Source of the DNA: Micropruina sonneratiae
GTDB lineage: Bacteria; Actinomycetota; Actinomycetes; Propionibacteriales; Propionibacteriaceae
NCBI RefSeq assembly: GCF_025972045.1
Contig: NZ_JAPDHX010000002.1
Location: forward strand, 496,001 to 560,000
Direction: 5' to 3'
DNA: 64,000 nt
Part shown: positions 688 to 3,252 of the stretch, in pieces
Layout: each line of letters opens with the position of its first letter
Numbering within the stretch: the stretch's first letter is position 1
The notes under the pieces: generated by a model
The model's database searches: none
The model's input: the letters and a program-made list of their open reading frames with translations, nothing else
What the model was told of the DNA's origin: nothing
Made by a program: the position numbers and the translations under genes

Positions 688-1629
688 ATGATCTCGACTG
701 CGCACCGCATCCGGAGCACCGACGGAATCGATGGCAAGGACGCCGTGGGCCTGTACCTCGACGGCATCGCCAAGACGCCCCTGCTGACCGCCGAACAGGA
801 GGTGTTCCTCGCCAAACGGATCGAGGCCGGCCTGTTCGCCCGGGCGCTGCTCGCCGAGACCGTGGAGGCCACGCGTCCCCACGGTGCCAGCACCGACGAA
901 CTCGAACGCATCGCCGCCGAAGGTGACGCCGCCCTGCAACAGTTCATCACCGCCAACCTGCGGCTGGTGGTCTCGGTCGCCCGCAAGTACGGCCGGGCCC
1001 AGATGCCGCTGCTCGATCTGGTGCAGGAGGGCAACACTGGCCTGATCCGCGCGGTGGAGAAGTTCGACTACAGCAAGGGCTTCAAGTTCTCGACCTACGC
1101 CACCTGGTGGGTCCGCCAGTCGATCTCGCGCGGCATCGCGCAACAGGGCCGGATCGTTCGCCTGCCGGTGCACGTGGCCGAGCAGGTCAACCAGGTGTCG
1201 GCCGTCCGCCGCACGCTGGAGCGCCGCTTCGGTCGCGAGCCCGAACTGGTCGAGATCGCCGACGAGTTGGGCCTGACCGAGGAGCAGGTCGTCGACCTGC
1301 TGCGGCTGGCCCGCGACCACGTCAGCCTGGACGCCCCGGTCGAGGAGGACGGCGACACCGCGCTGGGCGACCTGCTCGCCCGCGAGATGTCACCCGGACC
1401 GGACGAGATGGTGCTGGACGCCGAGGACCGCGCCCGCCTGGACGGCATGCTGTCGTCGCTGGACGAGCGCTCCGCCGATGTGGTGCGGCGCCGCTACGGC
1501 CTGGTCGACGGCAGGCAGGCCAAGCTGGCCGACATCGCCGCTGTCTGGGGCATCACCGCCGAGCGCGTCCGCCAGATCGAACGGCACGCCATCGCCAAGC
1601 TGCGCACGGCGCACGAACTGGCCGCCTGA
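688..1629 (+). CDS. RNA polymerase sigma factor, group 2 (SigB/HrdB-like)
   Basis: This 313-residue sigma-70 protein directs RNA polymerase to promoters. Region 1.2 is at about residues 18-46 (starting DAVGLYLDGI). Region 2, with DLVQEGNTGLIRA and the -10 binding segment FSTYATWWVRQSI, is at 87-150. Region 3 follows, and region 4 ends in a helix-turn-helix with ERVRQIERHAIAKLR. It lacks the long acidic N-terminus of a primary RpoD, so it fits the nonessential group 2 class (mycobacterial SigB type). A Shine-Dalgarno GAAAGGA lies 5 nt before the ATG. It is monocistronic and ends at a strong hairpin terminator. A stationary-phase or stress role is inferred from the family. Confidence 0.9.
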   Translation: MISTAHRIRSTDGIDGKDAVGLYLDGIAKTPLLTAEQEVFLAKRIEAGLFARALLAETVEATRPHGASTDELERIAAEGDAALQQFITANLRLVVSVARKYGRAQMPLLDLVQEGNTGLIRAVEKFDYSKGFKFSTYATWWVRQSISRGIAQQGRIVRLPVHVAEQVNQVSAVRRTLERRFGREPELVEIADELGLTEEQVVDLLRLARDHVSLDAPVEEDGDTALGDLLAREMSPGPDEMVLDAEDRARLDGMLSSLDERSADVVRRRYGLVDGRQAKLADIAAVWGITAERVRQIERHAIAKLRTAHELAA

Positions 1630-1706: not shown

Positions 1707-1810
1707 CCGTTCTCATCAACGCCGACTGCTGTCACCAACCGTGACTGCTTTCGCGTTGCAACACGAGAGCAGCCGGCCAAGCCGAGAACAGTCGGCGTTG
1801 ATGAGAACGG
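1707..1810. repeat. 104-nt symmetric palindrome (22-bp perfect arms, inner palindrome)
   Basis: Bases 1707-1728 are the exact reverse complement of 1789-1810. At the same centre (1758.5) sits a second palindrome, 1745-1772, whose core is GTTGCAAC. Two 16-nt segments that pair poorly separate the outer and inner arms, so the element is one symmetric structure rather than two unrelated hairpins. The arms weakly extend outwards (GGGGGC against GCCCCC). It has no coding capacity and lies between the sigma-factor terminator and the GAF-type regulator. It could be a degenerate miniature element, a structured RNA or a regulatory site. Confidence 0.8.
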
Positions 1811-1971: not shown

Positions 1972-1977
1972 GTGCCC

Positions 1978-3252
1978 ATGGGTCTCCAGACGGGGGCGAC
2001 GGTGCCCGCGCGTGACCGACCGCGGCATGGCCGCGGCCTCGCCCGGCTGCACGACGACTTCGTGAGTTCCGGCGCGGTCGACGAAGGCGTCCGGGCGGTC
2101 GTGTCCGAATCCTGGCAGCGCAGTGTGCGCAGCGGCGTCGACCCCGAACGGACGCTGGCCCCGGTCCGGCTCACCTCCGACGACCTGGCGCTGGCTAGGC
2201 AAGCCCATCCGCTGGCCCGGGCGTTGCCCGTGGTGCGACACCTGCTGGTGGAGGCGGCGGCCGATGCCGGTCTGCTGGTCGCGATCAGCGACGCGGCGGG
2301 GCAGTTGTTGTGGGTGGAGGGCGACCACGCGCTGCGCTCCCGGGCCGAGGCGATGCACTTCCTGCCCGGCGCGGACTGGAGCGAGGCGTCAGCGGGCACC
2401 AACGCCCCGGGCACCGCGCTGGCGCTGGGCCGTCCGGTGCAGATCGTCGGTGCCGAGCACCTGCTGCGGGCGGTCACCCCGTGGAGCTGCTCGGCCGCGC
2501 CGATCCGCGACCCGGCCCACGGGACCATCCTCGGCGTCCTCGACCTGACCGGCGGACCGCACAGCGCCACCCCGCAGACCCTCGCCCTGGTCCGGGCCAC
2601 CGTCGCGGCCGTCGAGGCCGAACTGCGGCTGCAGCAGCTCTCGCTCGGCGACCCGACCCGGCAGGCCTCGGCCGGACGCCCGCAGCTGGCCGTGCTGGGC
2701 CGCCGGCAGGCGATGCTGCACGGCGCCGGGATCGATCAGGTGTTGAGCCTGCGGCACAGCGAGATCGTGCTGCTGCTCAGCCAGCACCCCGACGGCCTGT
2801 CCAGCGCCGAACTCGCGGTCGAACTGAGCGACGACGACCTGGCCCCGGTGACGGTACGGGCCGAGCTGTCCCGGCTGCGGCTCGCACTCGGTCCGCTCGA
2901 GCTTTCCTCCAAGCCGTACCGGTTGCCCCCACTGGTCACCGACCTGGGCGACGTGTGGGCCGAGCTCGAGGCCGGCCGGCTGTCGGCCGCGGTGGCCCGC
3001 TACCGGGGGCCGGTCCTGCCGGCGTCCCATGCTCCCGGCGTGGTGCGGCTGCGGGACGACCTGCACCGGGGCGTCCGTGGCCGGCTGCTCGCCGGCGGCG
3101 ACCCGGACGCCCTGCTCGCGTTCGCCGACACGCCCTTCGGCCGTGACGACCTGGCCGTCTGGTCGCTGGCCGCCGCCACCATGCCGCCGTCGTCGCCCAG
3201 GCGTCCGGAGGTCCACCAGCACCTGCACGCCCTCGACCGGGCACTGCGGTGA
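1978..3252 (+). CDS. GAF-domain transcriptional regulator (AcoR-like) of the aldehyde dehydrogenase
   Basis: This 424-residue protein starts with an AcoR-type N-terminal segment containing [21 protein letters not shown] sensor domain at about residues 75-195 contains the conserved [16 protein letters not shown] and [13 protein letters not shown] stretches. The C-terminal half has a winged or helix-turn-helix region ([19 protein letters not shown]) instead of the AAA+ sigma-54 domain of true AcoR. Actinobacterial proteins of this kind usually lie next to ExaC-type aldehyde dehydrogenases, as here (91 nt apart, same strand). It probably senses a small alcohol, aldehyde or related signal and activates the dehydrogenase; the ligand is unknown. 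A GTG at 1972 is an alternative start, but the -10 element at 1966-1971 favours ATG 1978. Confidence 0.82.

Follow-up and report, generated by a model that had tools for sequence, protein, structure and literature searches.

MITEs, ERIC, Correia/NEMIS and RUP are intergenic inverted-repeat elements of about 100 nt that occur in tens of copies, and long intergenic palindromes are commonly put down as 'repeats of unknown origin'. Closer to the present case are systems in which a gene or protein is associated with repeats of its own. In REPtrons, several repeat-specific gene-repeat pairs can coexist (PMC3733652), and 23-bp inverted repeats are bound by AbiEi proteins, S. agalactiae having two of them and the region upstream of rv2827c four (PMC7319586). 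Vsr-like nuclease domains are represented by I-Bth0305I, a homing endonuclease that dimerises on a target of nearly 60 bp (PMC3943268), and by the MTES_1575 domain, described in PMC3710099 as a Vsr-family REase.

The palindrome described here lies in the window, the whole 64-kb stretch of DNA that was analysed, which comes from a 3.5-Mb genome in 17 contigs (G000). It belongs to a dispersed family, two copies of which bracket a gene for a two-domain nuclease; congeners carry different palindromes, and matched repeat pairs beside homologous nucleases recur across the class.

Structure and distribution of the palindrome

The palindrome at 1707-1810 is real, with 39 of 52 pairs symmetric, compared with 32 for the runner-up centre of the window. 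The first-pass annotation had described a centred double palindrome of 104 nt, in which 22-bp perfect arms and an inner hairpin share the same centre with 16-nt stretches between them. That description holds, as does its naming of the neighbours, which Pfam also assigns as a sigma-70 factor and a GAF-domain protein. The claim that no open reading frame is present was correct in substance, since none resembles a gene, but not to the letter, as mechanical ORFs of 60 or more amino acids do cross the palindrome. The features are as follows.

688 to 1629, plus strand: sigma-70 family factor gene, upstream context (Pfam)
1695 to 1822, no strand: imperfect G-rich/C-rich stem extension (column counts)
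1707 to 1810, no strand: reported palindrome of 104 nt with 22-bp perfect outer arms (symmetry count)
1709 to 1808, no strand: solo palindromic element of family A (GTTCTC...GAGAAC), the 100-nt unit conserved among copies
1709 to 1727, plus strand: outer 19-nt unit U1, consensus GTTCTCagCAACGCCsACT (column counts, 30 copies)
1728 to 1746, plus strand: second 19-nt unit U2, ryTnTC...gACT (column counts, 30 copies)
1747 to 1770, no strand: 24-nt central palindrome around GTTGCAAC; the central tetranucleotide is YRYR in the family
1771 to 1789, minus strand: mirror unit U2' (column counts, 30 copies)
1790 to 1808, minus strand: mirror unit U1' (column counts, 30 copies)
1972 to 3252, plus strand: GAF-domain regulator gene, downstream context (Pfam)

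Column counts over 30 copies give a mirror layout of 19 + 19 + 24 + 19 + 19 nt, in which U2 rhymes with the outer unit and the centre of the element approximates GYTYTCGTGTYRYRACACGARARC; where one unit is divided from the next is our reading of the period. Outside the 100-nt unit, GGGG at -9 to -6 and CCCC at +107 to +110 recur among the copies in G000, in 20-27 of 30 per column. Columns 49-52 of the alignment (A1) are nearly always pyrimidine-purine-pyrimidine-purine (TGCA, TGTG, CACA, CGTG and others), and are often not self-complementary.

As RNA, the 141 nt from 1690 to 1830 fold with -89.8 kcal/mol (z -9.3), and none of 200 shuffles folds equally well. Within the family, there is no covariation, and facing positions vary independently. 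The pairing test used 30 copies of exactly 100 nt, among them a single copy of the second type and two tandem copies that are nearly identical; three copies of 99 or 101 nt were excluded. Watson-Crick pairs occupy 1071 of 1500 cells, compared with 1097 +/- 15.4 when the right halves are permuted, and 4804 of 5000 permutations reach the observed count, so that facing pairs are, if anything, slightly avoided; G.T cells (106) are about as frequent as A.C cells (103) in our sum over rows. The covariance analysis suggested in the first-pass annotation thus gives no compensatory changes within the family, and its option of a structured RNA is not supported, since pairing is no better than between permuted halves and Rfam models match only far below their gathering scores. 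We take one of these, mir-1307 (26.6 bits, compared with a gathering score of 69), as a chance match. A conserved RNA hairpin is ruled out by the lack of covariation within the family; that the two halves vary independently is in keeping with a direct readout of conserved positions in duplex DNA.

The window element is situated 79 nt downstream of a stop codon. Two other inverted repeats lie close by. Just after the stop codon of the sigma-factor gene there is a strong GC-rich inverted repeat (1635-1679), which is probably that gene's own terminator. Just downstream of the palindrome is a second, imperfect hairpin at about 1837-1894, with arms CCGTCATCCCGG / CCGGGATGAGGG; it is essentially single-copy, with one weak other match in G000, and on that ground is not part of family A.

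The check on copy number by BLASTN against the same genome, which the first-pass annotation had proposed, showed the palindrome to be multi-copy, with 78 matches at E <= 10. When G000 was searched with a covariance model derived from 30 of the copies, 80 matches over the two strands resulted, representing at least 37 places among the matches listed. Family A, defined by GTTCTC...GAGAAC ends, accounts for at least 35 of the places listed, a density of about one copy per 100 kb, and hardly varies in length: of the 35, 32 measure exactly 100 nt and the other three 99, 99 and 101 nt. A second palindrome type (GATCTCGACATCG...) is found at two listed places, C11:202696 and C1:97492. None of 33 family places examined lies inside a called gene, and the 28 places with both neighbours called comprise 10 convergent, 12 co-directional and 6 divergent gaps, where the calls come from a simple, crude GC3-based caller. 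A regulatory cruciform, also among the early suggestions, is compatible with the element as a DNA structure, but its regulatory part sits poorly with copies in convergent, co-directional and divergent gaps alike.

No consistent target-site duplication emerged from 33 copies scanned at lengths of 2-10 nt and 25 x 25 offsets, the best case (5 nt) being 2 of 33, although old copies may have lost the duplication; nor was an insertion boundary found for the family-A copies. The suggestion of a MITE-like remnant therefore stands in part, in that the element is dispersed, intergenic, palindromic and multi-copy, and fails in that target-site duplications are absent and the bracketed gene encodes a nuclease, with no classical transposase between copies among the matches listed. 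An exact two-arm pattern had no match in viral_contigs, nor in genome_contigs, which may omit the window's own genome.

Some copies occur in tandem. At C13:73404-73890 (L046) three palindromes lie about 191-196 nt apart, and at C11:573765-573984 (L029) two copies are 120 nt apart. Beside the family-A nuclease, at C1:418254-418474 (L050), right-arm units are repeated in tandem every ~52 nt, as if the element had been amplified or copied in parts.

The bracketed nuclease and its homologues

Among the matches listed, the family-A pair found around a gene in G000 brackets a nuclease gene. This gene (C1:417209-418060) is intact and encodes 284 aa, and the two copies, at 417025-417124 and 418167-418266, lie 84 and 106 nt from it; profiles identify the neighbours as glnE and an MBL-fold gene. 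The same arrangement, with two palindromes of the local type bracketing a gene of ~290 codons, is found in G000, G001 and G005. No classical transposase lies between family-A ends in G000 among the matches listed, and profiles recognised no AbiEii nucleotidyltransferase toxin adjoining the family-A nuclease at the glnE locus.

The protein appears to comprise an AbiEi-like winged helix followed by a Vsr-like nuclease domain, an assignment that draws on profile matches and on structural matches that are weak. AbiEi_4 (PF13338) matches the family-A nuclease with 32.4 bits, compared with a Pfam cut-off of 25, which it passes in one of three nucleases tested. The C-terminal part matches the Vsr-like MTES_1575 REase domain, below threshold in all three proteins tested, and PADLOC AbiEi models match all four homologues in G000 (AbiEi E 3e-7). 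Residues D216, E227, D229, G230, K233, E188 and others are invariant in 13 of 13 homologues.

An AlphaFold2 model of a homologue from a Micropruina MAG (six sequences, pLDDT 75.9) gave no Foldseek row at E <= 0.001, the best rows being the I-Bth0305I catalytic domain (3r3p; probability 0.99, E 0.05) and an AbiEi antitoxin (E 0.1). With VIA-align, for which a Z under 8 may mean only a common arrangement, the C-terminal part matched NGO0050 (3hrl, Z 8.3) and I-Bth0305I (3r3p, Z 7.2), and residues 1-180 matched AbiEi (6y8q, Z 6.0). Rv2827c was matched at Z 4.8, and the highest score, Z 8.9, belongs to a helical protein that is unrelated and aligns to residues 114-179.

Relatives of the nuclease were not found by tblastn against plasmids (E <= 1e-5) or phages (E <= 1e-3), in viral_contigs, or by phmmer against the PDB. 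A tblastn search with three nucleases over 53 overlapping loci, made for relics of the gene beside solo copies, returned the family-A nuclease locus alone. Homologues are nevertheless common, being present in 5 of 6 genus genomes (first profile, E <= 1e-10). A profile of 13 sequences, at E <= 1e-20, recovers them in 56 of the 77 genomes sampled from the family and in 100 of the 148 from the class. In the R2 search palindromes were found beside 8 of 14 genus homologues, and the others have repeats of their own.

Matched repeat pairs, as judged by comparison of flanking sequences, lie on both sides of most of these homologues across the class. The test compares 550 nt to the left of each gene with 550 nt to the right, and a pair counts as matched at or above a score that 1% of 1200 cross-locus pairs attain. 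Of the 14 genus loci it covered 12, and of the 58 others 48; 3 duplicates were set aside, along with 7 loci truncated at a contig end, a truncated genus locus and a gene that was broken. Fifty of the 60 loci had a matched pair (11/12 in the genus set, 18/24 in the class set and 21/24 in the family set). None was found in distal windows of the same 60 loci or around 37 ordinary genes in the window, where the score peaked at 40 against a threshold of 49. As 26 of the 60 loci fall in nine orthologous groups, the number of independent loci is about 43. Of the named loci, Aeromicrobium sp. Leaf350 has a pair with a flank score of 108, and Microcella and Nesterenkonia (L193, L194) show none. The ten of the 60 loci that have no matched pair include the fourth homologue in G000. 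Wider flanks, applied to 11 loci, gave no clear rescue of these ten; L145 rose to 57 with flanks of 1500 nt, a length that has no control of its own. With the threshold set at 48 and a further locus added, there are 51 repeat pairs. Of these, 36 are clearly self-complementary, exceeding every one of 100 block shuffles, and the repeats lie at median distances of 105 and 94 nt from the gene.

Divergence of palindromes and inversion of the nuclease gene

A BLASTN search with the palindrome gave no match in 36 relatives, suggesting initially a repeat confined to the species. This was overturned by the covariance model, which found palindromes, mostly of 99-103 nt, in 5 of 5 congeners (E <= 0.1). 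The comparison with related genomes proposed in the first-pass annotation is thus negative by BLASTN and positive by covariance model, although with other arms: in place of those of family A the congeners have GATCTCGACATCGCC, GATCGCGCGATCG, GATCTCACCATCGG, GATCTCGAGATCGCT and GTTCTCGAGAACGG. Over 197 family genomes the model matched 8 at E <= 0.001, two of these outside the genus. In G042, a genome of another genus, two model matches near 3.61 Mb resemble the repeats that flank its nuclease at 0.377 Mb, with scores of 64-75 compared with a control maximum of 29. Both arms change together between species, which suggests renewal of whole elements.

The positions of the palindromes are seldom shared. 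Only 3 of 43 congener loci fetched have the neighbourhood of a G000 copy, two of them downstream of mfd and one at the nuclease locus beside glnE, and the other congener positions examined differ from those in G000. At the syntenic place of the window, the congener G004 has the sigma factor and the GAF gene without the element. The gap after mfd has a palindrome in three congeneric species (L109, L110 and L111), 46, 153 and 12 nt from the stop codon; one of the three has different arms.

Several nuclease-repeat pairs are found in G000 itself. Palindromes of 101 nt stand on either side of the second nuclease (C13:140251-141117) and match the model weakly (E 0.003 and 0.02). Their GATCTCGACATC-like arms are of the type seen in the two second-type solo copies of the same genome. 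The third (C14:83399-84292) has a 72-nt palindrome of its own on both sides, and this 72-nt family occurs at seven further places, two of them weak. The fourth homologue (L130, C1:240683-241588) has no matched repeat pair; two inverted repeats of ~120 nt lie on its right side only.

At the glnE locus, nucleases that are 56-61% identical occupy the same place in G000, G001 and G005, and the palindromes around them, GTTCTC..., GATCGCGCGATC... and GATGCCGGCATC..., respectively, differ clearly, with similarities of 0.07-0.12. In at least two of these genomes (G000 and G001) the dispersed copies include the genome's own glnE-locus type. Over 51 loci, palindrome similarity is correlated with nuclease similarity (Mantel r 0.34, matched by 0 of 2000 permutations), a signal that comes from close nuclease pairs only.

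Both outer flanks are shared by 31 locus pairs in nine groups, and in 11 of these pairs, from three of the groups, the nuclease gene is inverted relative to its flanks; seven of the 11 inversions are confirmed by gene alignment, and four, all with L153, are read from the strand in the search table. In the comparison of L146 with L150 the whole 1.3-kb cassette and its repeats are reversed, at 77.7% identity between flanks that are 90-91% identical. Cassette inversions at conserved loci were also observed for L142/L143, L117/L118 and others, and at sucB-lipB the G001 and G005 cassettes are in opposite orientation; the same place in G004 has one palindrome and no nuclease match. That nuclease loci are often conserved by position implies that the gene itself is not very mobile. 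Conserved loci with inversions imply, further, that the gene often stays long at one place and flips, and that the palindromes turn over.

Proposed mechanism, alternatives and known systems

How might the window element have arisen? We lean, by a modest margin of confidence, towards its being a solo copy of a binding site whose nuclease, encoded elsewhere in the genome, spreads and maintains its own palindromes. In this view the ~19-nt units of the nuclease's own palindrome form a symmetric array that the AbiEi-like winged helix would recognise and bind. The Vsr-like domain would nick or cut at or in the array, perhaps as replication lets it extrude into a hairpin, and repair of the break or template switching there could then copy palindromes into new intergenic sites, homogenise them and flip the cassette, with solo copies such as the window element as a by-product. 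Copying and homogenising by the nuclease would cause palindrome and nuclease specificity to change together. Binding, cutting and dispersal by the nuclease are what we infer from these arrangements. The nuclease-plus-matching-repeat units in many actinomycetes point to an undescribed self-spreading DNA system. The broader proposal seems to us evenly poised between true and false: a widespread, undescribed selfish or domesticated actinomycete module, in which the nuclease would spread, homogenise and renew its sites, flip its cassette and change its site between species.

The main rival is that the palindromes are operator arrays, in which the flanking copies autoregulate an AbiEi-like repressor, in the manner of AbiE toxin-antitoxin promoters, and solo copies near other genes serve as decoys or as sites of its regulon. 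PMC7319586 has AbiEi and Rv2827c binding two to four 23-bp inverted repeats in their promoters; a 100-nt element with two 19-nt units per half is of comparable scale, and the PADLOC AbiEi models match all four homologues in G000. We nonetheless consider it unlikely, given repeats on both sides of the nuclease gene, 10 of 28 places in convergent gaps, which contain no promoter (by the crude gene caller), and no toxin gene recognised beside the main nuclease, whose neighbours are glnE and the MBL-fold gene. The dozens of near-identical copies would in any case require a copying mechanism. A further alternative is that the palindromes are conventional MITEs, spread by an unrelated transposase and landing around the nuclease by chance, as their dispersed intergenic copies with inverted-repeat ends and the syntenic gap in G004, which has no element, might suggest. 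This is improbable when the pairing recurs with different repeats at 50 of 60 loci across the class, when there is neither a target duplication nor a Y1 transposase in G000, and when no family-end pair surrounds a classical transposase among the matches listed.

Readings that leave the nuclease aside fare worse. A density of ~1 copy per 100 kb, a fixed 100-nt length and an intergenic position at 33 of 33 places examined would suit a chromosome-organising or replication-related site of a host protein. Sites bound by essential proteins of the host tend to be conserved, however, and here the arms change wholesale between species of one genus and several different families coexist in one genome, making such a site highly improbable. 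Least credible of all is a structured RNA or terminator-like hairpin under selection. The fold is very stable and the window copy follows a stop codon at a distance of 79 nt, but covariation is absent by each of the counts given above (1071 compared with 1097 permuted, 4804 of 5000 permutations, 106 G.T compared with 103 A.C) and copies are also found in divergent gaps.

If a nuclease that spreads its own sites is indeed responsible, long intergenic palindromes would be matched with a biochemical partner and with a mechanism of copying that can be tested, and a nuclease family present in 100 of 148 sampled class genomes would gain a function. The many natural nuclease-site pairs could also be used to study how DNA-binding specificity and dozens of genomic sites change jointly. 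The module would, in effect, be the nuclease counterpart of REP/RAYT.

No description of nuclease genes bracketed by cognate palindromes was found in a search of openly available journal papers. Like MITEs, the window element has terminal inverted repeats and no coding capacity; the differences from MITEs, ERIC, Correia/NEMIS and RUP are that no target duplication was detected here and that the link is with a nuclease, not with an IS transposase. The AbiE type IV toxin-antitoxin system is similar in that AbiEi binds inverted repeats (PMC7319586) and has a related N-terminal DNA-binding module, as judged from a profile match and a weak fold match. Here, in contrast, this module is apparently fused to a nuclease domain, the repeats are on both sides of the gene and dispersed, and no AbiEii toxin was recognised beside the family-A nuclease. 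The Vsr-like, EDxHD enzyme I-Bth0305I has a catalytic domain of similar predicted fold, among the best though weak matches to the model, but the gene here stands alone in an intergenic cassette, not in an intron or intein, and its apparent partner site is a palindrome rather than a host gene.

The closest likeness is to REPs and REPtrons (PMC3733652), which share with the present system dispersed intergenic palindromes and a gene bracketed by the same palindromes. REPs in that source are 20-40 bp long with GTAG or CGTC tags, whereas the palindromes here are mostly 60-150 nt and have no such tags; family A in particular has a 100-nt unit with symmetric GTTCTC/GAGAAC ends. The REP enzyme, as presented there, is a Y1 HUH transposase; here it is a putative AbiEi-like/Vsr-like nuclease. 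A RAYT origin is rejected, as PF01797, the Y1 HUH transposase profile, has no match in G000; it was found in 5 of 14 control genomes. In conservative wording, the system represents a REP/RAYT-like principle with an unrelated enzyme.
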